Below, piece after piece: positions 7,051 through 26,107 of a stretch of DNA of 51,702 nucleotides; position 1 is the first letter of the stretch, and every line of letters starts with the position of its first letter. Below the pieces are notes generated by a model. That model was not told the origin of the DNA, searched no databases, and was given only the letters and a program-made list of their open reading frames with translations. The stretch covers positions 1-51,702 of the forward strand of contig CAJYRQ010000087.1 of NCBI GenBank assembly GCA_913777465.1. The letters are read 5' to 3'. The stretch is from an uncultured Chryseobacterium sp. (GTDB taxonomy: Bacteria; Bacteroidota; Bacteroidia; Flavobacteriales; Weeksellaceae). The translations under genes were made by a program, and so were the position numbers.

Positions 7051-7421
7051 AACCCTATCAAAATCATATTCAGACATTTATTTAATTTAAAGATAAGATT
7101 AATACTGATTCAGTAAGGATTATGAATGGAATGCCTCTGAATAAAAGGAGTAACAATTCACGCTTCTGACAGGATTTTGTCCTATCCTATAATAAGCCGT
7201 CCCTCCGGGATTTTAAAACAATATAAATGAGACCTTGTTTTAAAAATAAACTAAGATTGTTTTATTCAGGATTAAATAAAAACTTCCATTGATAGAATGA
7301 CAATATGTTCAGTTTGATGATCAAGGCTTCCAAAACTATTCCTGAAAGGAGAGACTTTCGGTATTGGCTTCCCTCTTCCAGCCTGTTAACTCCTGTTCTT
7401 CTTTGAGTTCACATTAATTTA
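7033..7421. repeat. MITE-like element 2
   Basis: Left end TTAAATTAACGTGAATTC (7033-7050). Right end GAGTTCACATTAATTTA (7405-7421) is its reverse complement with two mismatches. The 389-bp interior is AT-rich and non-coding. Near the right end it holds CTTCCCTCTTCCAGCC, a stutter that also ends a related copy at 11539-11580. The remaining 7422-7540 is plain AT-rich DNA. Confidence 0.5.
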
Positions 7422-7546
7422 CTAAACTTCCGGGATCAAGCTCCTCCTTTTTTATTCCCCTCTTTTTCAACCGCTTATTCTATATTTATTTAAAAGAATC
7501 TTAAACTTAATAGACCAAAGAAATAATCCATTTAGATAAATTTAAC

Positions 7547-7573
7547 AAAATTAAATTGTACACAATTCAATTT
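7547..7573 (+). promoter_or_regulatory. OhrR-type operator
   Basis: The core AATTGTACACAATT (7554-7567) is a perfect 6-2-6 dyad, flanked by AATTAA and CAATTTG half-sites. This resembles the TACAATT/AAATTGTA OhrR box of Bacillus and Xanthomonas as I recall it. It overlaps the -33 TTG of the promoter, a position suited to repression by the OhrR encoded at 8280. Confidence 0.65.
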
Positions 7574-7578
7574 GGCAA

Positions 7579-7586
7579 TATCTTTG
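7579..7586 (+). promoter_or_regulatory. Promoter -7 box of the nitroreductase-ohrR-ohr operon
   Basis: TATCTTTG matches TAnnTTTG exactly. The TTG at 7556-7558 lies 20 bases upstream as a -33 element. Predicted start of transcription near 7592, giving a leader of about 27 bases. Confidence 0.65.
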
Positions 7587-7618
7587 CAACATAAAATTCA
7601 ACAAAAAAATTTAACAAC

Positions 7619-8251
7619 ATGTCATTAATAGAAGATTTAAACTGGAGACACGCGGTAAAAGCTTATGATCCGTCCAAAAAAGTATCGGAAGAAGATTTAA
7701 ATAAAATCCTGGAGTCGGCGAGGCTTGCCCCTACTTCATCCGGACTGCAGCCTTTCCGTGTTATCGTAGTGGAAAATCAGGAATTAAAAGAAAAAATGGT
7801 TCAGGGCGCGTTGAATCCGGAAGTGATGAGAGATTCTTCCCACGTATTGGTCTTTGCCGCCTGGGACAGCTATTCCGATGAAAAAATCGACAAGGTGTAT
7901 GACCATCATACCGATGTAAGAGATTTACCTAGAGGCCGTTTTTCAAGCTATACCGACAAGATCAAGGAGATGTACGGAGCACAGACTCCTGAAGAACATT
8001 TTGCCCATACCGCCAGACAAACCTATATTGCCCTAGGATTGGCAATGGCTCAGGCTGCCGAACTTAAAGTAGATACGACTCCCGCGGAAGGTTTCAGCAA
8101 TGAAGTGGTAGATGAAATTTTAGGATTAAGAAAACTGGGATTAAAAAGTGTAAGTTTACTGTACATCGGCTACCGTGACGAAAAGAACGACTGGCTTTCC
8201 CACATGAAGAAAGTGAGAATTCCGATGGAGGAATTTATCATTAAAATGTAA
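7619..8251 (+). CDS. NAD(P)H-dependent oxidoreductase, nitroreductase (NfsB-like) family
   Basis: FMN flavoenzyme that reduces nitro compounds, quinones or similar electrophiles with NAD(P)H; cytoplasmic homodimer. The N-terminal WRHAVKAYDP is the FMN phosphate-binding region, followed by ARLAPTSSGLQPFRV; the C-terminal part has LGLAMAQAAELK and GLRKLGLKSVSLLYIGYRDE. 210 residues is normal. First gene of an operon with ohrR and ohr behind an OhrR-like operator, so I infer induction by organic peroxides or electrophiles. The physiological substrate is unknown. Confidence 0.9.
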   Translation: MSLIEDLNWRHAVKAYDPSKKVSEEDLNKILESARLAPTSSGLQPFRVIVVENQELKEKMVQGALNPEVMRDSSHVLVFAAWDSYSDEKIDKVYDHHTDVRDLPRGRFSSYTDKIKEMYGAQTPEEHFAHTARQTYIALGLAMAQAAELKVDTTPAEGFSNEVVDEILGLRKLGLKSVSLLYIGYRDEKNDWLSHMKKVRIPMEEFIIKM

Positions 8252-12480: not shown

Positions 12481-13353
12481 TTAATAAGTTTTCGTCATAT
12501 CCGCAGGAATCACCAGATTAAAATCCGTCGGGACATAGTCTTTTTCCGGTACTTTCAGTTCGGGATCTTCGGATTCAAAGACCGAGATCACCGCCATTTT
12601 CAGGTCCGGATTTTTCTGTTTGAGATACCAGTAGATACCGCCGAATTCCTTGCTGTGGTAATTTCCGTTGTAATGGATAAACGTCTTTCCGGGCTGAAGA
12701 TTTTTCAGGATCGATTCTGCCATGGTTGCATCTTTGATGGCCTGGGCCGAAATAAAATTCATGACCTTCATTTCTTCTGCGTGATCGCCCATCATTTTTT
12801 TCATTTCGGGATAACCGGGCGTTTCCAGAGTCACTTTAACCGGCAGTCGGGCGATATAGGCTTTATCTTTTGCCGGCAGTGTATTCAGGGACACCAGTCC
12901 TTCTTTCGCGGTTTGGGACGCGTATCTTCTGGGAACGTTAGTCGCAATAAACGGTAGTTTTTTATCTTTCGCAAAATCAACCAGCGGCTGATAATCCGTT
13001 GCAAAGTTATTCCACAGTCTTGCGGAATCCTTTAAGGTTTTGGCATCAAACGTTCCGCTTAAGTATTTATTTAATTGGGGCTGATTGTCCCGTTCAAACA
13101 TTTCCGCGCCTAAGATTAACTGCCCGTTTTTCTTCTGATACAAAGCTTCGGTAATTTTCAGCTGCAGCCAGTGATTGATGGAATTGTTATGGTTTTCGCC
13201 GAAGAATACGACATCGTAATCGGCCAGTTCATGTACCAGTTTTTCCGTTCTTACTTCATTCCCTTTTTTATCATAAAACTGATAAGCCTTAAAATCCTGT
13301 GCAGGAAGCGAACAGAAAGCGACCAGCAATATAGAGATAATCATATTTTTCAT
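12481..13353 (-). CDS. ChaN-like heme-binding / Tiki-superfamily protein
   Basis: Member of the ChaN (haem-binding uptake, PhuW-like) family with the EreA/Tiki-type fold. The hallmark is DYDVVFFGENHNN near residues 46-57, followed by GAEMFERD, NVPRRYA and FIHYNGNYHS. Residues 1-18 after the chosen ATG (13353) form a signal peptide ending LPAQ; an upstream ATG at 13407 would add 18 residues of unlike sequence. ChaN relatives bind heme as dimers at the outer membrane, and this gene lies directly downstream of the hmu operon but after a terminator. A heme role is inferred; a protease-like role of Tiki proteins is the alternative. Confidence 0.85.
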   Translation of the reverse strand: MKNMIISILLVAFCSLPAQDFKAYQFYDKKGNEVRTEKLVHELADYDVVFFGENHNNSINHWLQLKITEALYQKKNGQLILGAEMFERDNQPQLNKYLSGTFDAKTLKDSARLWNNFATDYQPLVDFAKDKKLPFIATNVPRRYASQTAKEGLVSLNTLPAKDKAYIARLPVKVTLETPGYPEMKKMMGDHAEEMKVMNFISAQAIKDATMAESILKNLQPGKTFIHYNGNYHSKEFGGIYWYLKQKNPDLKMAVISVFESEDPELKVPEKDYVPTDFNLVIPADMTKTY

Positions 13354-13439
13354 ACTGAATAATTTTTTAACGCAAATAACACCAATAGGAATCACAAAGA
13401 TCACCATATAATTTTAAAGATAACTTCTGAATTTTTAAA

Positions 13440-13647: not shown

Positions 13648-14676
13648 TTATTTTTCCAGCCCTGCCACGAGGTCTTTCCATTCCTGCAGCTCAGGGATTC
13701 CCGGTTTTCTTTTCCCGAAAAACTGAACGATAAAATCCCCTTGTTTGTTGAATACTTCAATCGCCGTTACTTCGCCATCTTCCGTAGGTTTCTTTACGAT
13801 CCAGGCTTCCGCTATTTTGGTAACATCAAGGTGCAGGTTGAAATCCGGGTCCATGACGTTGAACCATTGCTGATGCCATAAAGTTTTCTTTACATTTCCG
13901 GTGTGGATCTGGATAATTCCCCTGTTTCCTACGAAGATCATGATCGGAAGCTCTTTTTCCGAAGCGTCTTCCAGGACATTGACCACTTTCGAGCTGTCGA
14001 TCTTTTGGGTAAAGCCTTCCGGTGCCAGTCTCAGGGCCTGGGTTCTGCTCACCCCGAATTTCCGGGTCATCATAAAGAAATCATGGGTATCTTTCAATGA
14101 TTTCCATGCGTTTTGGAAACCTTCCACATCAATTTCTGCATCCGGCTTTTCTTCCGCTTTCGGAGCCACCGCTTCAGATTCAAAAGAAGTATCCTGCTCA
14201 TCAGCCCTGAATTTTTCAACCAATGCATCAAAGGCCGCTTCGTTGCTGTCTTTGGTCAGGTAAATCTTATGAAGCGCCAGTCCGTCTTTTCCGAAGAACT
14301 GCATACTTTTCCGGTCTCCTTCCTCTACGGCAAAAGCAAATTTCCAGTGGTTCAGGAAAATCCTCAGGTCGATGTCTTCCCCGACAAAAAGCTGGGCGTG
14401 CGGACTGCTGAAATCGCCGTTTTGGTAAATTCCTTTTCTTTCGTGAACGCATTCGTCGTTACGGGTAAGCGCCATTACTTTTCCCAACCGCTCAGCTTCC
14501 GTCAAGATATTCTGAAATTCCGGTTTCAGCACCGTTACCCCTTCCCCAACACCGGTTGCCAGCAATTCGGCTTCGCTTACGCCAAGTTCTTCTGCTGCAT
14601 TTCTTATTCTCACGTGCGGATTTTCAGCTTTAAGAGCTTCCCATTTTTCTTTCAGATCGTGTACTAATGTGCTCAT
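13648..14676 (-). CDS. hmuS: Hemin-degrading / heme-carrier factor HmuS (HemS family)
   Basis: Cytoplasmic protein of the HemS/HmuS/ChuS family that takes heme from the ABC importer and stores or degrades it. The 342 residues hold the two related halves expected: the first with RIRNAAEELGVSEAELLATG and VMALTRNDECVHERKG, the second from about residue 185 with DTHDFFMMTRKFGVSRTQALRLAP and IHTGNVKKTLWHQQWFNVMDPDFNLHL. It is the last gene of the hmu operon, four bases after the methyltransferase stop. Whether it degrades heme or only carries it cannot be told from sequence. Confidence 0.93.
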   Translation of the reverse strand: MSTLVHDLKEKWEALKAENPHVRIRNAAEELGVSEAELLATGVGEGVTVLKPEFQNILTEAERLGKVMALTRNDECVHERKGIYQNGDFSSPHAQLFVGEDIDLRIFLNHWKFAFAVEEGDRKSMQFFGKDGLALHKIYLTKDSNEAAFDALVEKFRADEQDTSFESEAVAPKAEEKPDAEIDVEGFQNAWKSLKDTHDFFMMTRKFGVSRTQALRLAPEGFTQKIDSSKVVNVLEDASEKELPIMIFVGNRGIIQIHTGNVKKTLWHQQWFNVMDPDFNLHLDVTKIAEAWIVKKPTEDGEVTAIEVFNKQGDFIVQFFGKRKPGIPELQEWKDLVAGLEK

Positions 14677-14680
14677 TATT

Positions 14681-15331
14681 TTATTTTTTTATGGTTAAAA
14701 TCGTGTAATTTCTTGTTATGGTTTCGTGTCCTGTTTTGCTTTTTACTTCTTCTTGCCTCTCGGAAACGGTCATTCTGCTGAAATGGCTTTTGGAAACCAT
14801 CTCTTCCATTTCATCGGTATTGTAAAGAATAAAACCGAATGGGGTGAACGGCAGCTTCTCCATGAAATCCCTCTGACCGAACGTCAGGACAAAAGTTCCT
14901 GTCTTTTTCAGGACCCTGTAAATTTCATTTAAATAGTCCACCGGCTGTTTCCAGAAATAGACGGTGTTCACGGTAAATATTTTATCAAACGTCTTATCTT
15001 CAAAAGGAAGCTTTTCGCCTCCGTACAATACAAAATTTGCCTGCTCCCTGAAGACTTCGTTTAATTTTTTGGCTTCATTGTGCATAGTAACGGAAATATC
15101 AATTCCCGTATATTTTATATTTTGCGCTCTGTTCAGGATGCTTTTCACATGGCCAGCATTTCCGTGGCCGATCTCGAGAATCTGCTCGTTGTCTTCGATC
15201 AGAAGTGCTTTAATGCTTTCCAGCGTCATTCCGATGTTAGTGGCATTCATCATCTCACCGATCTCAATGCCTTTTTCGCCTTCAGGATTCGCCAGGTTTC
15301 TTGCTAATATTTTTAGTTTTTCCTGGTCCAT
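14681..15331 (-). CDS. Class I SAM-dependent methyltransferase in the hmu operon
   Basis: Rossmann-fold methyltransferase. Motif I is QILEIGHGNAGH near residues 50-61, followed by YTGIDIS, FEDKTFDKIFTVNTVYFW and a YRVLKKTGTFVLTF strand. It resembles the UbiE/type 11 group but no substrate can be named. The start ATG shares one base with the hmuV stop (TAATG), and hmuS begins four bases after its stop, so it is translated as part of the heme uptake operon. I infer a link to heme or tetrapyrrole handling; this is not a standard hmu gene. Confidence 0.85.
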   Translation of the reverse strand: MDQEKLKILARNLANPEGEKGIEIGEMMNATNIGMTLESIKALLIEDNEQILEIGHGNAGHVKSILNRAQNIKYTGIDISVTMHNEAKKLNEVFREQANFVLYGGEKLPFEDKTFDKIFTVNTVYFWKQPVDYLNEIYRVLKKTGTFVLTFGQRDFMEKLPFTPFGFILYNTDEMEEMVSKSHFSRMTVSERQEEVKSKTGHETITRNYTILTIKK

Positions 15332-16101
15332 TATCCGAAAATAATCATAGGGTTATGGGTTACCGGATGTTCGCAAATGGTACATGGAAAATTGTAAGCC
15401 CTGCTGATGTTTTCAGCGGTGAAAACTTCTTCCGGCGTTCCATAGGCGACGGTCTTTCCCGATTTCATTAATAGTATTTTATCGGCATACTGCGCAGCAA
15501 GATTCAGATCATGAAGCACGACCACCGCCGAATTGGCCTTTCGGGTAAATTTCCTGATGCTTTCCAGCGTTTTATACTGATGTTTTACATCCAGGTTATT
15601 CAGAGGTTCGTCCAGGAAAAGAAGCTTATGCGCCATTCGGTTCTGCAGCTGGGCCATCACCCTCGAAAGGTGCACCCGCTGTTTTTCCCCGCCCGATAAG
15701 GTATTGTATTCCCGGTCCTTCAGATGATAAACATCGGTTTCGTACATCATCCGGTTCATGGCTTCAAGGTCTTCCTGCCGGGGCTGGGCATCAAAATACG
15801 GATACCGTCCCATCATCACCACATCTTTCACTTCAAGCGGGATGTCGCTGCTGTTGTGCTGGGAAAATTTGGCTTTATGCCTGGACAGTTCCTGCACCGA
15901 CCAGTCGCTGATGTTTTTATCTTTAAATACAATCGGCTGACTGCATTTCACTTCATTGGCCAGCATACTCAGCAGGCTGGATTTTCCGGCTCCGTTCGGA
16001 CCCACAATCGCGAGGAATTCGCCATACTCCAGATGAACATCCACGGCATCCAGGATATGGAAGTCCTTATGTTTATACGTAATCTGATGAGCCCTGATCA
16101 T
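15331..16101 (-). CDS. hmuV: Heme ABC importer ATP-binding protein HmuV
   Basis: ATPase that drives heme uptake through the inner-membrane permease HmuU. Walker A GPNGAGKSS is at 34-42, the signature LSGGEKQRV at 135-143, Walker B LLFLDEP at 160-166 and the H-loop VVLHDLN follows near 195. 256 residues is the usual FecE/HmuV size. The gene overlaps hmuU by 4 bases (ATGA) and the methyltransferase gene by 1, so all three are translationally coupled. Confidence 0.95.
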   Translation of the reverse strand: MIRAHQITYKHKDFHILDAVDVHLEYGEFLAIVGPNGAGKSSLLSMLANEVKCSQPIVFKDKNISDWSVQELSRHKAKFSQHNSSDIPLEVKDVVMMGRYPYFDAQPRQEDLEAMNRMMYETDVYHLKDREYNTLSGGEKQRVHLSRVMAQLQNRMAHKLLFLDEPLNNLDVKHQYKTLESIRKFTRKANSAVVVLHDLNLAAQYADKILLMKSGKTVAYGTPEEVFTAENISRAYNFPCTICEHPVTHNPMIIFG

Positions 16102-17141
16102 GCGAGTGATTTTTTAAATTTAATTAAAATTGAAATAAAGATCGGCCCGCCCATCAAGGCGGTGAGAATCCCGATCGGCAGTTCCGAAGGTTCTACAATG
16201 CTCCTGCTGAATGTATCGGCAGTTAACAATAAAATACTGCCGCAAATTGCCGACAACGGCAGGATGAAAGCATAATCGGATTTGAACAGCAGCCTTAAAA
16301 TATAAGGCACAATAAGCCCCACGAACCCAATCGTCCCCGAAAATGCCACACAACTTCCGATCATCAGCGCCGTTAGAAGGATAATCTGTTTCTTCAGCCG
16401 TTCTACATGGATTCCCAAATGCTGCGCATCTTTTTCACCCAGCATCATGGCATTCAACGCTTTGCCCTTCGGCAATAGAATAAGGTAGGATATGACGAGG
16501 ACAATCGCCAGAATAATATTCTTCGTCCAGGTGGCTGCTGCAAGGCTTCCCAGGTTCCAGAACGTTAAATCCCTCAGCTGGTCGTCTTTTGAAATGTAGA
16601 TCAGGAAACCGGTGATGGAGAATCCGATCGCTGTAATCGCAACACCGCTCAGCAGCATCATGACCACATTGGTTTTACCTCCGCTGGTCGAAATCCTGTA
16701 GACCAGCAGCATGGATAAGAAAGAACCTATGAAAGCAGCGATTCCCACCAGTGAAAACTGTACCGCTTCAGGAAGATACTGCTTGAAGTGCCCTCCTAAA
16801 ACGATGGTAACAGCGGCAAGTAATGTTGCTCCCGAGGTAAGCCCTATCAGATCCCCTGTGGCCAGCGGATTTTTAAACAATCCCTGCAGACTTGTCCCTG
16901 AAACGGCCAGCATGCTCCCGATCAGGATTGCCATCACAATCCTTGAAGCCCTTACGTCCCATACGACATATTGGTCGCTCAAAGCCAAACCCGGATCCCC
17001 TGTTATCATTTTACCGAGCACTTCAAAGGCGGATTTCCCGCCGAAATCGTAAACTCCGGTATTAAGAGACCATACTGCTGCAATAGCAAGCAGTATGGTA
17101 CTTATGGTGACGTAAACGTATAATTTACTTGGTGTTCTCAA
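16098..17141 (-). CDS. hmuU: Heme ABC importer permease HmuU (FecCD family)
   Basis: Inner-membrane permease of the BtuC/FecCD family with about ten transmembrane helices. Family features include LAVSGTSLQGLFKNPLATGDLIG, VMMLLSGVAITAIG, LGSLAAATW, MMLGEKDAQHLG and the C-terminal GFVGLIVPYILRLL with SELPIGILTALMGGPIF (quoted here in parts). 347 residues is normal. It overlaps hmuT by 17 bases upstream and hmuV by 4 bases downstream. Heme is inferred as substrate from the neighbours hmuR, hmuY and hmuS. Confidence 0.94.
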   Translation of the reverse strand: MRTPSKLYVYVTISTILLAIAAVWSLNTGVYDFGGKSAFEVLGKMITGDPGLALSDQYVVWDVRASRIVMAILIGSMLAVSGTSLQGLFKNPLATGDLIGLTSGATLLAAVTIVLGGHFKQYLPEAVQFSLVGIAAFIGSFLSMLLVYRISTSGGKTNVVMMLLSGVAITAIGFSITGFLIYISKDDQLRDLTFWNLGSLAAATWTKNIILAIVLVISYLILLPKGKALNAMMLGEKDAQHLGIHVERLKKQIILLTALMIGSCVAFSGTIGFVGLIVPYILRLLFKSDYAFILPLSAICGSILLLTADTFSRSIVEPSELPIGILTALMGGPIFISILIKFKKSLA

Positions 17142-18003
17142 CTAAAAGTTTGTTTAATCCTACAGCAGCTTCTCCCAATCTCGGTCCGAAACCTGAAACG
17201 AGGCCTCCGTCCATGGCGATGATCTTTTTGTTTTTCCCGGCATTGGTCTGGGAAACACCCGGCATCTTCAGAGCCCCTTCGTTTCCTCCTGCACCCTGCA
17301 ATCCGCTGGTAAAAAAAAACAGCACATCGGGGTTGGCTTTCACCACTGCTTCCGGGGTTAAAGGTTTAAAGTCTTCAAAATCGTTAACAGCATTTTCTCC
17401 GCCTGCAATTTCAATTAAGGAAGCCATCGGTGTATTTTTTCCGGAAACCATCAGCATATTCCCTCTGGCATAGATGAACAGGATTTTCGGCTTCTTAGCA
17501 ATTGGCTGGATCTGCTTCAGATCGGCATCTATCCTATCATTCAGCTTCTGGTAATCGTTGCTTCCGATGGTTTTGGCTACGTCGGCAATTAATTTTTTGG
17601 TTCCGTCTACGGTAAATTCCTGCTTGAAAATTTCGGTTTTAATTCCGGAAGATTTTATTTTGCCCATTAATGCCGGATTGATGTCTTTATCCGAAGCTAA
17701 AATCAGGGTCGGGGAAACGGCCATGATCGGCTCAATGGTCATCGACCGTACGTGTCCCAAATCAACGGCTGTCGCTTTCAGCGATTCCGGATATGTGCTG
17801 GTAACATCGGTTCCCACAATTTCTTTTTCATGGCCCAGCGCTGCAACGATTTCTGTAATCCCTCCGTTCAGGGTGACGATCTTGTTGTTGGATTTCGGGG
17901 CCTCCGGGCTTACTTCCGTAGCATTTCCTGTTTTGGCGCTTTCCTCTTTTTTACATGAGTACACAGCAACCAGTACAGAAGCGGCAAGAATGATTTTTTT
18001 CAT
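17125..18003 (-). CDS. hmuT: Heme-binding periplasmic lipoprotein HmuT
   Basis: Substrate-binding protein of the HmuTUV importer. A lipoprotein signal ends VAVYSC with the lipid Cys at residue 17, so it is tethered to a membrane. The TroA/BtuF-like fold is shown by KIVTLNGGITEIVAALG, EIVGTDVTSTYP, GHVRSMTIEPIMAVSPTLILAS and a GGENAVNDFEDFKPLTPEAV region (quoted in parts). The hmuU start lies inside its last 17 bases. 292 residues is standard. Confidence 0.94.
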   Translation of the reverse strand: MKKIILAASVLVAVYSCKKEESAKTGNATEVSPEAPKSNNKIVTLNGGITEIVAALGHEKEIVGTDVTSTYPESLKATAVDLGHVRSMTIEPIMAVSPTLILASDKDINPALMGKIKSSGIKTEIFKQEFTVDGTKKLIADVAKTIGSNDYQKLNDRIDADLKQIQPIAKKPKILFIYARGNMLMVSGKNTPMASLIEIAGGENAVNDFEDFKPLTPEAVVKANPDVLFFFTSGLQGAGGNEGALKMPGVSQTNAGKNKKIIAMDGGLVSGFGPRLGEAAVGLNKLLVENTK

Positions 18004-18027: not shown

Positions 18028-19113
18028 TTATAAAGGTTTGTATTCGAACTGGGGGAAGCCTCTTACCCCTTCAGTATTTGTAATTCTTGTAAATCTTAAT
18101 TTAAAGTAAAAGCCTTCAGCATCTTTGATGATGTAAAAACGGTCGCCGTATACTTCCAGGCCGTTTGCACCCACAGGATTTCTCCAGTTGGACCCGATGA
18201 CCCGCTGATCATTATAAATAAATTTGGAAGGATCAATATCGGAGGTTTTAAAGTTGGTAAAAGCTTCCACTCCTGATGCCGGTGCCGGAACCACCACTTC
18301 ATAAGCTCCTGCCCCGCCTACATTATTGATCGTTACAAAATCCGCAAAAATATAGCTTCCCGCCCCGGTGATGGTATTGGTGAATACGGTAAAGCAAAGA
18401 TCCCATTTTTTCTTTTCAGGCTGGATGACCACTTCTTTTTTGTTTTTTAAACTGACAAAACTGTAATTGTAGGCGGTATTTTTATGTACAGTCACCTCAT
18501 AATAATTATCTCCGTTAAGGTCCGCAGATTTTACTTTATACCCTTCTCCAGCGCGCACGATCTGTACTTTTTTCCAGCCACGGCTGTTTCCGCCGGTTGC
18601 TACAGAACCCACAGGAACATTACCCGCGAAAATATCTTTTCCCATATTGACAAGATAAACGGCGTTTTCGGAATCATTGGCTTTGATTTCATCAATGGCC
18701 GTATAACCTGAAGGGAAGTTTCCTTTTACATCATCGATATACGTTACATTGGAAGGATTGAAATTGGCCACCTGAACCTGCGGCTGCAGAGAAGCCACGC
18801 TTGCTTCGGTAACGGCATCGATATCCGTAGCATTAAGAATCTTGCCTGCAGCCATCATGATGGATGAGTTTAGCACTACTCTGAAATCGTTTCCCGAATA
18901 AAAAGCAAGATCCCAATCCGTCCTTTTGGTAAGCATCTGCGAATTGGTTCCCAGATCGAACCAAACCTGGTTCGGCTGTGTTGCACCACCAACATTAGGA
19001 TCTACTCTTGCCCCATCTGAACGCATTACTACCACAGGGTCTTCGTTATCATTGATACACGATTGTGAAATAAAGGAAGCCCCGGCAAGTAAGCAAAATA
19101 GTATTTTTTTCAT
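18028..19113 (-). CDS. hmuY: HmuY-family heme-binding lipoprotein
   Basis: HmuY-type hemophore that captures heme at the cell surface and hands it to HmuR. A lipoprotein signal ends FISQSC (Cys19). Two HmuY-like blocks are seen: VWFDL...TDWDLAFY (50-72) and KKWDLCF (from W237), followed by RFYIIKD and FYFKLRFT near the C-terminus. At 361 residues it is longer than the Porphyromonas protein, apparently by duplication of the block. It sits 10 bases after hmuR and 24 before hmuT. A paralogue with a T9SS domain is encoded at 22463. Confidence 0.88.
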   Translation of the reverse strand: MKKILFCLLAGASFISQSCINDNEDPVVVMRSDGARVDPNVGGATQPNQVWFDLGTNSQMLTKRTDWDLAFYSGNDFRVVLNSSIMMAAGKILNATDIDAVTEASVASLQPQVQVANFNPSNVTYIDDVKGNFPSGYTAIDEIKANDSENAVYLVNMGKDIFAGNVPVGSVATGGNSRGWKKVQIVRAGEGYKVKSADLNGDNYYEVTVHKNTAYNYSFVSLKNKKEVVIQPEKKKWDLCFTVFTNTITGAGSYIFADFVTINNVGGAGAYEVVVPAPASGVEAFTNFKTSDIDPSKFIYNDQRVIGSNWRNPVGANGLEVYGDRFYIIKDAEGFYFKLRFTRITNTEGVRGFPQFEYKPL

Positions 19114-19123
19114 TTTTATGGAT

Positions 19124-21259
19124 TTAAAAATTGTAATTTAAACGGGCAAAAAAGCTTCTGCCGTAGAACAGGTTCTGTTGGCGTGCGGCTGCATTGTGGG
19201 TACCTCCGGATTGGACGGTATTTCTCACGCTGGTAACGTCGAAAATATTTTTTATTCCCGCGCTTATTTCAAAATGGTTCTTAAAGAAAGGCTGGCTCAC
19301 GGTAAAGTTCAGCATATTGAAATCGCCGATTTCACCCAGAATGTACTGTCCAGGATCAGTCGGGTTATTTGTATCCCCGACATGCGTGTATCTCCGCTGG
19401 GCTCCGGTATATTTGTAGTATAGGGCAAACAGCGTCCCGGCAGACGGTAAGGTATAGTTGGCCGCCAGGTTGGCTTCTGTGTAATAATTGTAATCATCCG
19501 GTGAGGTAAGCCTTCCCGTGCTTAAGACCTGGGAAATTCCCATCACCGAAACACCGGCATTTAATGAAAAAGCTTCTTTTCTGAGATTTACTCCGCCTCC
19601 GAATAATATGGATTTGTAATCATCTACATTCAGATAAGTAATCTGTAACGGACTGTTGTTGATGATCACATCTTCAATTCTGTTCTGGACATCCAGGTAC
19701 ATTCCCGAGAGGCTGAAATTGAATTTCCAGCCTTTGTCGCTGGTTAAGGCATAATCCCAGAACGCAGCAGCCGAGTATCCGGTTTCAGGCTTCAGGTTTT
19801 CATTTCCCCTGATGTCGTGGTTGTTGTCGACAACATAGGTATACAGTTCGTCATACGTCGGGAACCGGTTGGCTGATCCGAAGACCGTACGGATATCCGA
19901 AGTTTCCGAAGTTTTAAACCGTAAAGTGCCGGAATAATTGTATTGGGAATTAAATTTATCGCTTAAAGCCATCCTTACCCCCGGACGGAATGAAAGCCAG
20001 CTGTTGATGTTGCATTCTGCCGACAGGAAATTGGCGTAATTAAAGACCGAGCGTTCGATGCTTCTTCCGTTGTTGTTGCTTTCAAAAGTGGTGGCATCGG
20101 CAAAGCCTTTGGTCCTGTCCAGTTCATACCCGATCTGGAAATTCACTTTTTCGCTGTCCAGAAAATTGCTGAACATTCCTCTTGAGTAGAGTACATCCGA
20201 TTTGTAGAATGTAATTTCAGCATCTCTCAAAATTTCCTTCCGGTTGGGAATATCATAGCTGTACTGCTGTGATTTTCTTTCCTGGCTCTGATAAGAAAAA
20301 TCCCCTATATAGTTGATCCTTCCCAGCTTGCTCTGGATGTTGAACTGGTGGATCCACCGGTTGGTATGGTAATCTTTGTCATTGGCCGTATACGTCCTGT
20401 TGCCTCCTCCGAGATAAAATTCATTAACGATGGGATTGTAATAGTTTATTTTTTCGGTAAGAAAATTAAGCTTGTAGAAAAAGCTTGTGTTGTTCTTGCT
20501 GTAACGGATGGTACCGTTCGCAGTCAGCTGGTCCTTCGGCTGCCAGTCATAGCCCCGTTGTCCGTCGTTGCTTTCGCTGAAATATTTATAGCCGTTGAGC
20601 GATCCCTTGTATCCCTGGAAATCGTTATGGTTGACATCGGCAGCAACCGACCAGTGGTCATTGATCCGGTAGCCCAGATTCAATGACTGGATGTGCCGGC
20701 CGTTCCCTTTTTTGAACCAGTCGTAGTTATTTCTCACCGTTTCTTCCTGCAGAGAAGCCATGGCCGTAAATTTTTTGGCGTACGTTTTTTTGGTAATGAT
20801 GTTGATGACACCGGCAACGGCATTGTTTCCGTATTCAACACCCATGGAACCCTTTACAACCTCTATTCTCTCAACGTTATTCACATTAATTTTGGTAAGG
20901 TCTACGATATTCCCCATTCCTTCGTCGCTTACTACCGGAATGTTATCGATAAGGATTTTGGTATATTTACCGCTCAGTCCCATAATACTGGCATTGGAAT
21001 TCCCCGAGCCTTTGCTGGGTTCTATTAAAATATTGAGATTCTGATTAAGTACTTCCGCAACATTGGCCACGGCCATATTTTTGATCTGCTGCGCATCAAT
21101 CACCTCCACCTTATAGATAGACTTGTTGATGGACTGCTGGGTGTATTGTCCGGTAACCACCACTTCCTCGATCTGCTTCTGTTTTACAGAATCATTTTCC
21201 TGTGCACTCATCCATAAAACAGTGGACAAAGAGAGAATGGAAAGCACTTTCTTCTTCAT
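19124..21259 (-). CDS. hmuR: TonB-dependent heme receptor HmuR
   Basis: Outer-membrane receptor, 711 residues, with signal peptide ending WMSA-QE, a TonB-box-like IEEVVVTGQ near 31-39, a plug domain (IMGLSGKYTKILIDNIPV, VERIEVVKG, GNNAVAGVINIITKK) and a 22-strand barrel ending in Phe (LNYNF). The heme-receptor motif pair is seen as FPTYDELY and GNENLKPE, with His481 between them (NNHDIRGNENL), like the FRAP/NPNL-His arrangement of HmuR/HemR. First gene of the hmu operon. Its promoter region carries iron-box-like dyads shared with the divergent gene at 21356. Confidence 0.94.
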   Translation of the reverse strand: MKKKVLSILSLSTVLWMSAQENDSVKQKQIEEVVVTGQYTQQSINKSIYKVEVIDAQQIKNMAVANVAEVLNQNLNILIEPSKGSGNSNASIMGLSGKYTKILIDNIPVVSDEGMGNIVDLTKINVNNVERIEVVKGSMGVEYGNNAVAGVINIITKKTYAKKFTAMASLQEETVRNNYDWFKKGNGRHIQSLNLGYRINDHWSVAADVNHNDFQGYKGSLNGYKYFSESNDGQRGYDWQPKDQLTANGTIRYSKNNTSFFYKLNFLTEKINYYNPIVNEFYLGGGNRTYTANDKDYHTNRWIHQFNIQSKLGRINYIGDFSYQSQERKSQQYSYDIPNRKEILRDAEITFYKSDVLYSRGMFSNFLDSEKVNFQIGYELDRTKGFADATTFESNNNGRSIERSVFNYANFLSAECNINSWLSFRPGVRMALSDKFNSQYNYSGTLRFKTSETSDIRTVFGSANRFPTYDELYTYVVDNNHDIRGNENLKPETGYSAAAFWDYALTSDKGWKFNFSLSGMYLDVQNRIEDVIINNSPLQITYLNVDDYKSILFGGGVNLRKEAFSLNAGVSVMGISQVLSTGRLTSPDDYNYYTEANLAANYTLPSAGTLFALYYKYTGAQRRYTHVGDTNNPTDPGQYILGEIGDFNMLNFTVSQPFFKNHFEISAGIKNIFDVTSVRNTVQSGGTHNAAARQQNLFYGRSFFARLNYNF

Positions 21260-21290: not shown

Positions 21291-21345
21291 TTTATTTAGA
21301 ATAGTTAAAAATAAATATATATTTTTGTGGAATAATTCTAAATAA
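21291..21345. promoter_or_regulatory. 55-bp iron-box-like promoter/operator, copy 1 (hmuR / 21356 divergent)
   Basis: Identical at 51 of 55 positions to 22391-22445. It contains a left half TATTTAGAATAGTTAAAAAT, a plus-strand -7 box TATTTTTG (21320-21327) and a right dyad TGGAATAATTCTA (21328-21340). The AGAATnATTCT core looks like the Fur boxes of Flavobacteriia as I remember them. It lies between hmuR and the T9SS gene and can control both. Confidence 0.7.
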
Positions 21346-21355
21346 AAATAACAGT

Positions 21356-22183
21356 ATGAAATCAGGATTACTTTTTGGAAGTTTAATGCTGGCAGCAGTT
21401 TCGCTTAATGCACAGGTAGCTATAATTGATGAAAATTTTGAGAGTGCAATTGTATCGTCTCCGGTAAACTATAATAACCTTGTTAACGGTTGGATAAAAA
21501 AAACAACCGTTAACCATAATATTTATGTCGATAAAAACACGACAACGAATAACCAATATGCACAGTTTTATGCAGCAGGTTCATTAAGCACGGATGTATT
21601 TCTGGTTTCGCCACAGATTGTAGTTCCGGACGGTTCAAAAAAAATAACGTTTACTGTGACCCCTACGGGCGGATCTACCCTTGAGGTAGGATTAATAGAT
21701 GATCCTTCTAATCTTACAGCAGGGAGTGGAGTACCTGCATCTTATCAATTGTTGCAATCATTTACATTTACCGATACAGCTACCGAAACTACAGTTTCCC
21801 CTATTACCGTACCTGCATCAACAAAACAGTATATCGTTTTCAGGTTCCGAAACCCTTTAGCCACATTTCCGGGGTCTTCCCACTCCGCACTGGCTGTCGA
21901 TAACATAAAATACAATAATTCATCTGTACTGAGTACTTCTGAACACACAAAATCACAAGAAGAGATCAGGTTTGCCGTAAATGCCGACAACACTGCCTTG
22001 GAATTTATTGCTAAAAAAGCCCCTAAGAATATCCAGGTTTATTCGGCAGGAGGCCGAAAGGTAGCCGGTGGAAAGTTATCGGGAAGATCTTTTGACATCA
22101 GTACACTCCAGACCGGTGTTTACTACCTTCTTATCGAAACCGCGGAAGGAATAATAGTGAAATCAAAATTCATTAAGAAATAA
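21356..22183 (+). CDS. T9SS-exported choice-of-anchor J / cleaved-adhesin-like protein
   Basis: 275 residues: signal peptide to SLNAQ (about 20), then one choice-of-anchor J (cleaved adhesin-like) beta-sandwich with IIDENFESA, VFLVSPQIVVPDGSKKITFTV and SALAVDNIKYN, then a type A T9SS sorting domain from about 200 (IQVYSAGGRKV, GVYYLLIETAEG, IKSKFIKK-like end). So it is secreted or attached to the surface. It is divergent from hmuR and shares its iron-box-like operator. In Porphyromonas gingipains, cleaved adhesin domains bind hemoglobin or heme; a similar job is inferred here. Terminator at 22211. Confidence 0.85.
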   Translation: MKSGLLFGSLMLAAVSLNAQVAIIDENFESAIVSSPVNYNNLVNGWIKKTTVNHNIYVDKNTTTNNQYAQFYAAGSLSTDVFLVSPQIVVPDGSKKITFTVTPTGGSTLEVGLIDDPSNLTAGSGVPASYQLLQSFTFTDTATETTVSPITVPASTKQYIVFRFRNPLATFPGSSHSALAVDNIKYNNSSVLSTSEHTKSQEEIRFAVNADNTALEFIAKKAPKNIQVYSAGGRKVAGGKLSGRSFDISTLQTGVYYLLIETAEGIIVKSKFIKK

Positions 22184-22390: not shown

Positions 22391-22445
22391 TCTATTTAGA
22401 ATAATTAAAAATAAATATATAGTTTTGTAGAATAATTCTAAATAA
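22391..22445 (+). promoter_or_regulatory. 55-bp iron-box-like promoter/operator, copy 2
   Basis: Second copy of the element at 21291. The -7 box is TAGTTTTG (22420-22427). Right after it TAGAATAATTCTA (22428-22440) is a perfect 6-1-6 palindrome over the expected transcription start. The upstream half TATTTAGAATAATTAAAAAT covers the -33 region. This is a good repressor site in front of the HmuY-like T9SS gene. Confidence 0.72.
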
Positions 22446-22462
22446 CAAACAAGCCTTATATT

Positions 22463-23773
22463 ATGAAAACAAAATTACTTTTTACAACCATGCTGGCGTT
22501 GGGGGTACAGCAAACTGTACTGGCCCAGACCGATGCCAACGGATATACTACGGTAAATATGACCATGGGATCAGGTTACCAGAACCGGGTATTCTTTGAC
22601 CTGAGTGACAATACAATGGTATCCCAACCGGCAAATACCTGGGATATCGCTTTTTACAGGAATTCAAGCATGAATTTCGGAACCCGGATCAATGATGCCC
22701 AGAATATTGAAGTCTACCAGGCTTCCAACAACCCGAACGACTGGAACAGCATTACCACCAACAGTGTTGCTTCATACGGATCGCCGTTATACAACCTGGA
22801 TAATACAACAACGATTCAGAAAGGTGCTTTCGAACAGGGAACGGCAACGTACGGTTGGGGAGAATACAATCCGGGAAACCACCATATCGAAGGTAAAGTG
22901 ATCTTTATCCTGAAATATGCTTCCACCAACACGTATTATAAGTTTATGATCGATGATTATTTCGGCGGTTATACTTTTAAATATGCCAAATGGAATGCAG
23001 CCAGTTCTTCCTGGGATACCACCACTTCCAAAACCATCGCCAACGGAAACGATGACGCTTATTTCAATTATTTCTCTTTCACAACCGGAGATAAGGTGCC
23101 GGGTCTTGAGCCTTCAAAAGCGGGCTGGGACATGATGTTCACGAGATACTGGACCGATTATCCGTACACGGATCCCAACACGGGACAACCTGCCACCATG
23201 AAATACCGGATGGCAGGTGTGATTCAGAATACGAACATTACCGTGGCCAAAGTACAGCCCGAAACCCAGGCTACTTCTTCTTCTGCCCTGCCTGCCTCAA
23301 CCGCATTTTCAAATAATATCACAGCCGTCGGGCATTCCTGGAAACCGGCCATGGGCGCACCTTATTCCGATATCGTCTATTATGTGAAGCAGGGCTCGGA
23401 ATACTACCGGATGTATTTTACTTCCAGCGAAGGATCTTCTACCGGAAATATGTATTTCAAATATAAAAACATCACTTCTTCTTTAGGAACGACGGATGTG
23501 GCTTCCAAAAAAGCAGGTTTCGGAATTTACCCGAACCCGACAACGGCAGACCGGCAGGTAACGGTTTTATTTGATGTTAAAGAAAAGGTGAACAGCAAAG
23601 GCCAGGTAGAAGTTTATGACCTTTCCGGGAAAAGAGTTTATTCGACAGAACTGACGAACCAAACCGGTTTCTACAAGCAGGACCTGAATCTTTCCCACCT
23701 GTCTTCCGGAAACTATCTGGTGAAAATCACCTTCGGCGGAAGCACGGAAACAAAAAAGCTGATCGTGAAATAG
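22463..23773 (+). CDS. T9SS-exported HmuY-like protein (putative secreted hemophore)
   Basis: 436 residues: signal peptide to LAQ (about 22), a HmuY-like region, and a type A T9SS sorting domain from about 351 (GIYPNPT, VEVYDLSGKRVYS, SGNYLVKI, KKLIVK). The HmuY-like region matches the hmuY product at 18028: VFFDL...TWDIAFY (43-65) against VWFDL...DWDLAFY, GWDMMF (221-226) against KWDLCF, DIVYYVKQ and YYRMYFT against RFYIIKD and FYFKLRFT, and FKYK against FEYK. A surface lipoprotein anchor is thus replaced by T9SS export. The shared iron-box-like promoter supports a heme role. Heme ligands cannot be assigned by eye. Confidence 0.8.
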   Translation: MKTKLLFTTMLALGVQQTVLAQTDANGYTTVNMTMGSGYQNRVFFDLSDNTMVSQPANTWDIAFYRNSSMNFGTRINDAQNIEVYQASNNPNDWNSITTNSVASYGSPLYNLDNTTTIQKGAFEQGTATYGWGEYNPGNHHIEGKVIFILKYASTNTYYKFMIDDYFGGYTFKYAKWNAASSSWDTTTSKTIANGNDDAYFNYFSFTTGDKVPGLEPSKAGWDMMFTRYWTDYPYTDPNTGQPATMKYRMAGVIQNTNITVAKVQPETQATSSSALPASTAFSNNITAVGHSWKPAMGAPYSDIVYYVKQGSEYYRMYFTSSEGSSTGNMYFKYKNITSSLGTTDVASKKAGFGIYPNPTTADRQVTVLFDVKEKVNSKGQVEVYDLSGKRVYSTELTNQTGFYKQDLNLSHLSSGNYLVKITFGGSTETKKLIVK

Positions 23774-23947: not shown

Positions 23948-24038
23948 CCTAAGTTGTAAAGCAGCAGAACCTCAGAAATTGATCATTTTCATCTGGCGTT
24001 TCACGGTGATCATCACATTTATTACAGATCAGAATGAT

Positions 24039-24046
24039 TACCTTTG
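24039..24046 (+). promoter_or_regulatory. Promoter -7 box left in front of the pseudogene
   Basis: TACCTTTG fits TAnnTTTG, 54 bases before the ATG at 24100. Probably the promoter of the former Crp/Fnr gene. Confidence 0.45.
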
Positions 24047-24099
24047 ATCCCTTCATTTGGAAATTACCTGCCGCCTTAACAAATACACCGAAAACTAAA

Positions 24100-24661
24100 A
24101 TGTACAGCCAGTTAGAAAAATATATTAAAACCAGAACAGCCATTGATGAGAAAACGCTTTCTTACATCTGTTCGTATTTTCAATTCAAAAAAACAAAACG
24201 AAACGAATTCCTGGTAAAAGAAGGTGAAACCTGCAGGCATTACTATTTTGTAAAGAAACGGGAACTTTCTTTTTACCCATGGACGGAGATTATCAATTCC
24301 CGCAAATCGCCATCAGGGACATTGCTGCAAAAGCTATAGAATTTTTAACGGATCAGACCTGGACAGGCGTTGAAGGGTTTGCAGTTCACGGTCCGGAAGA
24401 CCTCAGCTATCATGAAATTGCCGACAGATGGGTGAATTAACGGAAAAGCCCATCCTTTTTCAGCAGGTTTCAAAAGAAGATTATATAAAGACACTTCTGG
24501 AAAAGCATCATACGAGTGAAGCGTTTGCAAACGCTCTGACCGAAATGCTGACGGCCATCGGCAACGGCCTGCATGATACGGAACCAAGAACGGAAGCCTC
24601 TACAACACCGACTACCATCAAAGAATGGATGCATGAACATCTGGTTTATCAGCTAAAATAA
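24100..24661 (+). pseudogene. Chimeric pseudogene: Crp/Fnr N-terminus joined to NmrA-like C-terminus
   Basis: Three pieces in three frames. 24100-24278 encodes the start of a Crp/Fnr regulator (QLEKYIKTRT, FLVKEGETCRHYYFVKKREL), the N-terminal half of its cNMP-binding domain. At about 24279 the frame of an NmrA-like NAD(P)-binding protein begins (FPQIAIRDIAAKAIEFL, VHGPEDLSYHEIADR) and stops at 24438. After a one-base loss near 24427 the same protein continues in another frame (KPILFQQVSKEDY, TTPTTIKEWMHEHL) to 24661. I infer a deletion that removed the regulator's DNA-binding half and the NmrA protein's cofactor half, then a frameshift. Neither piece can be functional. Confidence 0.8.
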
Positions 24662-25222: not shown

Positions 25223-26107
25223 CTAAAAAACTGATTTATAAATGGTAATGCAACTCATAATGATCACCAAAGTGCCTATAACTGCAAACATGCTTTTCAC
25301 CGGAAGTTTCGCTGTGAGCATGGCCGAAAAAGGAGCCGTAACGATACCGCCGATCAGCAGTCCCAGAATAATATTCCAATGCTGGATGCCGAGCGTAAAA
25401 ATAAAGGTGATGGCAGCCGTTAAAGTCAGGATAAATTTGGCCACCGTAGAGCTTCCTACGGCAAACCTTGGAGTAAATGAATTTTTAATTAATGTTCCCG
25501 TCACCAAAGGTCCCCAGCCGCCTCCGGCAAAAGAATCGATAAATCCGCCGATGAGCCCGAGCTTGGTAAGGTTGGTTTTCCTCTTAAGTTTTTTATCCTG
25601 CTTTTCCTTAAAGGCATTTGATAAGATCTGAACTCCGAGATACAGTGTATAAAAAGAAATGACGCTTTTCGTGATTTTAGAATAATATTCCCCGAGATAG
25701 GTAAGCGAAACGGCACCGATCACCGCACCGATCACGGCCGGAACAGCCAGTCTTTTCACCAGGCTTTTGCTTACGTTTTTCAGCCTGATGTGGCTGATGC
25801 TTCCTGCTGCCGTCGTAAAACTTTCAGCCGAATGGATGCTGGCACTCACCGCGTGCGGCGGAATTCCCAGGAATAAAAGGGTTGTGGTACAGATGACGCC
25901 ATACCCCATTCCCATAGAGCCGGCCACGATTTCCGCCAGAAACCCGACCAGAAGCATCCAGTAGAAAATGTAGTTGTCCTTCGCCAGAACATTCAGCAGT
26001 TCATTGAGATAACCCATTTCGTACATGGAAAAAACGATAAGGGCTAGCGCCGCAACCGTAATAAAAAAAACATTGAGCCTGAGCTGCACTTTTCTTGAGA
26101 TTACCAT
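25223..26107 (-). CDS. Sulfite exporter TauE/SafE family membrane protein
   Basis: 294 residues with about eight hydrophobic helices in two similar halves: AEIVAGSMGMGYGVICTTTLLFLGIPPHAVSASIHSAESFTTAAGSISH and IGGFIDSFAGGGWGPLVTGTLI, both quoted in parts. The two G-G-G-P/G motifs are the family mark. It is the last gene of the cys operon, 10 bases after cysN. That context suggests export or uptake of sulfite, sulfate or a sulfur compound during sulfate assimilation; direction of transport is unknown. Confidence 0.88.
   Translation of the reverse strand: MVISRKVQLRLNVFFITVAALALIVFSMYEMGYLNELLNVLAKDNYIFYWMLLVGFLAEIVAGSMGMGYGVICTTTLLFLGIPPHAVSASIHSAESFTTAAGSISHIRLKNVSKSLVKRLAVPAVIGAVIGAVSLTYLGEYYSKITKSVISFYTLYLGVQILSNAFKEKQDKKLKRKTNLTKLGLIGGFIDSFAGGGWGPLVTGTLIKNSFTPRFAVGSSTVAKFILTLTAAITFIFTLGIQHWNIILGLLIGGIVTAPFSAMLTAKLPVKSMFAVIGTLVIIMSCITIYKSVF

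Follow-up and report, generated by a model that had tools for sequence, protein, structure and literature searches.

The window analysed here is a stretch of 51,702 nucleotides from an uncultured Chryseobacterium sp. (contig CAJYRQ010000087.1), belonging to a genome of 4.4 Mb. It contains an hmu locus and, beside it, a gene whose product resembles HmuY, a model haemophore of Bacteroidota, and carries a C-terminal sorting domain of the type 9 secretion system (T9SS). The features of the locus are as follows.

22463..23773, forward strand: gene of the T9SS-tagged HmuY-like protein (436 amino acids, ATG start)
22463..22525, forward strand: signal peptide, residues 1-21 (read by eye)
22526..23497, forward strand: HmuY-like body, residues 22-345, with WD motifs at residues 59-65 and 221-226
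23525..23770, forward strand: type A T9SS C-terminal sorting domain, residues 355-436 (TIGR04183, PF18962 and a structural match)
22393..22448, forward strand: promoter copy 2, upstream of the T9SS gene, with Fur-box-like sites at 22394-22412 and 22425-22443
21293..21348, strand not assigned: promoter copy 1, situated between the divergent hmuR and 21356 genes, with Fur-box-like sites at 21294-21312 and 21325-21343
18028..19113, reverse strand: HmuY lipoprotein (PF14064, 102.6 bits in two stretches; fold match to HmuY structures)
19124..21259, reverse strand: TonB-dependent receptor, HmuR-type (PF07715, PF00593)
21356..22183, forward strand: second T9SS-tagged protein, 275 amino acids (weak Cleaved_Adhesin match, 14.9 bits, cut-off 21.4)
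17125..18003, reverse strand: substrate-binding protein, HmuT-type (PF01497)
16098..17141, reverse strand: FecCD permease, HmuU-type (PF01032)
15331..16101, reverse strand: haem ATP-binding cassette (ABC) transporter ATPase, HmuV (NF010068, 280.9 bits, cut-off 261)
13648..14676, reverse strand: HemS/ChuX-type haem-handling protein (PF05171, PF06228)
12481..13407, reverse strand: ChaN/Tiki-type haem-binding protein (PF04187)

The closest named relatives of the HmuY-like body are found in Chryseobacterium, which points to this genus; in strain SN22, for instance, the body is 94% identical. From the loci of named relatives the best 80 of 119 were kept, and the 79 named loci represent Chryseobacterium, Epilithonimonas, Kaistella, one Flavobacterium and two metagenome-assembled genomes of Weeksellaceae. 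A secreted open reading frame (ORF) of at least 400 amino acids is present in 75 of these 79 loci; 49 of the 75, together with the window protein, constitute the close alignment A3, while alignment A4 is composed of the window lipoprotein and 44 of 75 lipoproteins longer than 340 amino acids from the same loci. The shorter secreted rows are L129, which stops before the sorting domain, and L152, L155 and L157, in which the gene is split into two ORFs.

The signal peptide is followed by Gln22, probably the mature N terminus (conserved in 50 of the 50 rows of A3), by a body of approximately 320 residues and by the sorting domain, which scores 60.5 bits against TIGR04183 (cut-off 23) and 55.5 bits against PF18962 (cut-off 27). 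In the predicted model, structure comparison also revealed resemblance of this domain to solved T9SS sorting domains. The by-eye signal peptide and the TIGR04183 domain place the protein among type A T9SS proteins, in agreement with the preliminary description, which had seen these two elements in place of a lipobox. SprA, the sole T9SS component searched for, is encoded in the same genome (2041 bits). As that description also anticipated for automatic annotation, Pfam and NCBIfam recognise the sorting domain alone.

The relationship to HmuY is visible in five motif pairs, all of which were found in identical order, as had been claimed: VFFDL, TWDIAFY, GWDMMF, YYRMYFT and FKYK at residues 43, 59, 221, 314 and 332 of the T9SS protein, and VWFDL, DWDLAFY, KWDLCF, FYFKLRFT and FEYK at residues 50, 66, 236, 335 and 356 of the lipoprotein. 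BLASTP aligned the body with the 18028-19113 lipoprotein over about 300 residues at 25% identity with 42.0 bits; among 1000 shuffled bodies the highest score was 25.0 bits. The profile and structure checks proposed earlier were also positive: profile-profile comparison with HmuY (hhalign) gave a probability of 99.1%, and on realignment against 1000 chains the predicted fold matched HmuY-type crystal structures best, with 129-155 aligned residues distributed across residues 15-341 of the model. PF14064 matches 10 of 25 relatives, L049 and L052 exceeding the Pfam cut-off for HmuY. Judged by these profiles and the predicted fold, the protein is a distant sister of HmuY within the HmuY superfamily. 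The organism therefore does carry, as suggested, two HmuY-type proteins, the PF14064 lipoprotein (whose signal ends in ISQSC, read by eye as a lipobox) and its T9SS-tagged relative, with start codons lying 3.35 kb apart.

His140 is kept in 50 of the 50 close and 20 of the 25 broad rows, and position 291 is His in 47 of the 50 close rows (Tyr in the remainder) and His or Tyr in 14 and 8 of the 25 broad ones, respectively. Judged by conservation alone, His140 and His291 are candidate haem ligands.

The two promoter copies are 93% identical over 56 nt, and their 28-nt core is present in these two places only, genome-wide, allowing up to three mismatches. In Riemerella anatipestifer the Fur box is ATTTAGAATTATTCTAAAT, and a fragment of the hmuR promoter of this species is bound by Fur in a gel shift (PMC5609570). 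Both copies in the window contain sites resembling this box, the best matches being 17/19 and 16/19. Within 150 bp of the secreted-gene ORF starts of the named loci a Fur-like match of at least 15/19 was found in 78 of 82 cases, as compared with 3 of 82 shuffled regions; upstream of other genes the same count gave none for the lipoprotein gene (0/78), the gene at 25223 labelled SulP (0/66), hmuV (0/71) and the methyltransferase gene (0/68). The four misses are L156 (Flavobacterium), where the secreted gene closes a series of co-directional genes, and a single ORF from each of the split genes in L152, L155 and L157. In 52 of 68 testable loci the two promoter regions have in common an ungapped stretch of 40 nt, identical at 32 or more positions (shuffles never exceeded 28), and we therefore consider the promoter copy to be old. 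The predicted iron control of the T9SS gene is thus supported at the sequence level by a copy of the hmuR-type promoter with Fur-box-like sites. Scans for promoters (23 sites versus 15.3, sd 4.4, in shuffles) and terminators (7 versus 7.3) were given no weight.

The neighbourhood of the gene is conserved. In all 79 named loci an HmuR-type receptor (its type being taken from position) is adjacent to the secreted gene or one gene off, the gene of the HmuY lipoprotein is present in 77, the remaining two ending at contig ends, and the second T9SS-tagged gene intervenes in 68. In Chryseobacterium the secreted gene is directed away from hmuR-hmuY-hmuTUV. Among 14 loci from other families of the order, it is located immediately before a co-directional hmuR in 13; in L043 haem-transport genes intervene between the two. 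An HmuR-type gene is found in 31 of 34 further loci, which include these 14. A different arrangement was observed in L156, L228 and L233-L237, where the secreted HmuY comes after the lipoprotein HmuY, co-directional with hmuR, and the lipoprotein has an additional N-terminal stretch of approximately 110-160 residues. In Chryseobacterium sp. E1 (L080 and L155) the hmu locus is broken into many short ORFs, probably by sequencing errors.

With respect to occurrence, 190 of 320 genomes of the same family match at E 1e-3, 14 of them with a weak lipoprotein-type match only, and 126 of 395 genomes of the order match the A1 profile at 1e-5, lipoprotein-type matches being counted in. In six genomes of the order (G130, G141, G169, G162, G146 and G183) the secreted protein is the sole PF14064 match, and with the A1 profile each of them likewise yields a single match. 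Four of the six are below 90% complete, and the absence of the lipoprotein is not proof, since Pfam missed a lipoprotein in G191 that phmmer detected.

The preliminary description regarded the T9SS protein as an HmuY "rebuilt" for export, which is not supported in the sense of a local conversion. In a maximum-likelihood tree of 67 bodies, from which permuted and cut rows were excluded, 34 secreted and 33 lipoprotein rows are separated by one branch with support of 100/100, a separation that is not fully independent because the row labels came from profile scores. As the two forms lie on either side of this branch, we regard the window pair as old paralogues and reject the idea that HmuY was converted locally for secretion. 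A noisy motif check accompanied the tree. The lipobox pattern missed 12 of 33 lipoproteins, as it does not accept QSC signals of the window type, and matched one of 34 secreted rows; the pattern for the sorting domain failed to detect 6 of 34 secreted rows and gave false matches in 8 of 33 lipoproteins. All six missed rows match a sorting-domain profile, either of NCBIfam (L043, L044) or our own (L045, L233, L234, L235).

Nine loci (L047, L048, L221-L227), which represent five genera within a single family of the order, encode a circularly permuted secreted HmuY, in which the usual order of modules (first, middle, second, sorting domain) is replaced by middle, second, first, sorting domain. 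The sorting domain of the permuted proteins of L048 and L225 is detected by NCBIfam, and the permutation in L047 agrees with Pfam HmuY, positions 3-37 of the profile falling at residues 281-309. Two loci of the same family, L041 and L230, are unpermuted. Such a rearrangement would fit a fold whose first and last strands pack together.

The receptor encoded at 19124..21259 was named HmuR-type because of its position before hmuY. It scores below every curated haem-receptor cut-off (56.6 bits against 316.85 for TIGR01785), and both the receptor and the permease also match cobalamin and siderophore families, without reaching any cut-off. These scores would suit a protein binding a different TonB substrate (cobalamin, a siderophore or a porphyrin other than haem) brought by the same receptor. 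We consider this distinctly improbable, as the locus encodes an HmuY recognised by Pfam, HemS/ChuX, ChaN and a haem ATPase that exceeds its cut-off. The gene at 21356..22183, which separates hmuR from the T9SS HmuY gene, has a product that gave only spurious-looking matches against the PDB (repeat proteins, residues 14-49). Its relatives range from about 260 to 430 amino acids and are present in nine loci without a secreted HmuY. On the other side, a 101-amino-acid ORF at 24034-24339 resembles residues 3-80 of a 206-amino-acid protein of L056, which by eye looks Crp/Fnr-like; in the window, no more than the start of such a gene was found here.

Computation supports the homology, the predicted fold, the sorting domain, one T9SS core gene (SprA), the conserved neighbourhood and the copied promoter with Fur-like sites. 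Our preferred reading, to which we assign a probability of roughly 0.7, is that the product is a secreted HmuY-superfamily haemophore, derepressed from Fur together with the hmu operon, exported by the T9SS and passing haem to HmuR. We infer that haem would be the ligand and that Fur would act on the gene in vivo: under iron limitation Fur would depart from the promoter and the protein would be produced together with the hmu operon. In T9SS substrates the C-terminal domain directs passage through the system and is removed at the cell surface. In the proposed sequence of events, the Sec signal would be cleaved, the C-terminal domain would carry the protein through the T9SS and then be removed, and the HmuY-like body would stay outside, either surface-bound or released. 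There it would capture haem, or haem on a haemoprotein, and may pass it to HmuR directly or via the lipoprotein HmuY, after which HmuR, the ABC transporter and HemS would carry it inward. The bacterium thus probably collects haem through two related proteins, a lipid-anchored HmuY and its T9SS-tagged sister.

Several observations weigh against this reading. PF14064 does not match the 22463..23773 protein at E 1, nor its body at 0.1, and for this reason we class the protein as a diverged HmuY-like sister and not as a member of Pfam HmuY itself. With the full model, no HmuY structure was among the 50 matches listed by Foldseek, the top ones looking spurious, and a profile search of the PDB placed HmuY at 0.061 as against 0.1 to 0.17 for unrelated chains, with 8b6a alone standing out at 1e-4. 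The Fur-like match reaches 15/19 in only 8 of the 14 order-level loci (misses: L041, L042, L046, L047, L048 and L053), and no HmuR-type gene was seen in the stretches fetched for L229, L231 and L240. The secreted gene is missing from nine hmu loci of the genus. Lastly, the available text of a study on Flavobacterium columnare reports that deletion of its T9SS-secreted HmuY left growth in low-iron medium and virulence unchanged (PMC9618737), and the secreted group has no universally kept axial ligand, both His140 and position 291 varying in the broad rows. As a separate observation, the secreted HmuY of L240 is a second copy in genome G210, beside a normal copy (L239).

The variable axial ligand, together with the weak Cleaved_Adhesin match of the adjacent T9SS gene, would suit a surface protein that captures haemoproteins (e.g. 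haemoglobin) while the lipoprotein HmuY alone binds free haem. This seems rather unlikely to us, since the predicted fold is of HmuY type and since in the six genomes where it is the sole HmuY-type protein found it would have to take on the role of HmuY.

The absence of the gene from part of the genus, its two-ORF split in L152, L155 and L157 (that in L155 looks like a sequencing error) and the lack of a growth phenotype of the F. columnare counterpart in the available text (PMC9618737) might instead indicate a paralogue that is redundant or in decay and plays no real part in haem uptake. Such decay is highly improbable, however, given that the ORF of at least 400 amino acids is retained in 75 of the 79 named loci, with a Fur-like promoter, and that relatives recur throughout the family and the order. 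The gene of the presumed secreted HmuY-like haemophore is real and widespread, and it is probably functional.

A T9SS-secreted HmuY as such is already in print. HmuY of the fish pathogen F. columnare (C6N29_01035), which combines HmuY_like and Por_Secre_tail domains, was described in 2022 as T9SS-secreted (PMC9618737), and the novelty of our finding is consequently lower than the preliminary description assumed. This protein, compared by description, resembles the window protein in having both domains, but HmuR is unmentioned in the main text of that paper and the deletion is reported without a growth phenotype. The fold, the linkage to a TonB receptor and iron-type regulation are shared with Porphyromonas gingivalis HmuY and related proteins (Tfo, PinO and the haem-binding HfpY of Flavobacterium psychrophilum, PMC9331221); in contrast, the available text does not describe these as T9SS substrates. 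The solved HmuY-type chains also comprise approximately 175-200 residues, whereas the body of the secreted clade has about 320, in addition to the T9SS domain. In Tenacibaculum maritimum an HmuY lipoprotein was detected in the secretome (PMC10288586; locus in PMC5561996), and the lipoprotein form may therefore also occur outside the cell. HBP35 of P. gingivalis, named in a review as a T9SS haem-binding effector (PMC10202324), is likewise a haem-binding type A substrate, although a paper title speaks of its thioredoxin activity; it is set beside the window protein by description.

RhuH of R. anatipestifer (8XJC) is a secreted haemophore encoded beside rhuR-rhuA with a common Fur-box promoter (PMC11967795) and in this respect similar to the protein described here. 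However, it belongs to an unrelated family, DUF6607, which rules out that the two are the same gene, and the available text mentions no sorting domain. In the PDB, 8XJC was matched neither by the 22463..23773 protein nor by the A1 profile at E 10. A search of the window's genome for a RhuH-type gene returned an empty result, without a positive control. In L245 a DUF6607 gene (7300-8199) lies directly behind hmuY and matches 8XJC at 5.8e-95, and no secreted HmuY was seen in that stretch. RhuH-type proteins and secreted HmuY may be alternatives at this locus.

In the open-access literature, subscription papers being outside the scope, HmuY and Por_Secre_tail were found together in PMC9618737 only, and no paper was evidently devoted to a paired secreted and lipid-anchored HmuY system, nor was any found on circular permutation of HmuY or on DUF6607. 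The conserved arrangement of two paralogues, the copied iron promoter and the natural circular permutation in five genera are apparently undescribed.

More tentatively, and at slightly less than even odds, we suggest that the Flavobacteriales possess an ancient second branch of the HmuY superfamily made for T9SS export, which in Chryseobacterium would be Fur-controlled through a copy of the hmuR promoter and would provide one receptor with a pair of haemophores, one far-reaching and one docked. In some other lineages the exported form would be the sole HmuY serving that receptor, and its body would tolerate a circular permutation by which the first strand module comes to lie behind the second. 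A widespread T9SS-exported sister of HmuY, whose gene, like hmuY, lies beside hmuR and is apparently regulated by iron in the same way, offers a clean genetic system, in which single and double deletions could show whether haem is caught at a distance and then relayed. For annotators, genes labelled "T9SS type A sorting domain-containing protein" beside hmuR may encode haemophores.
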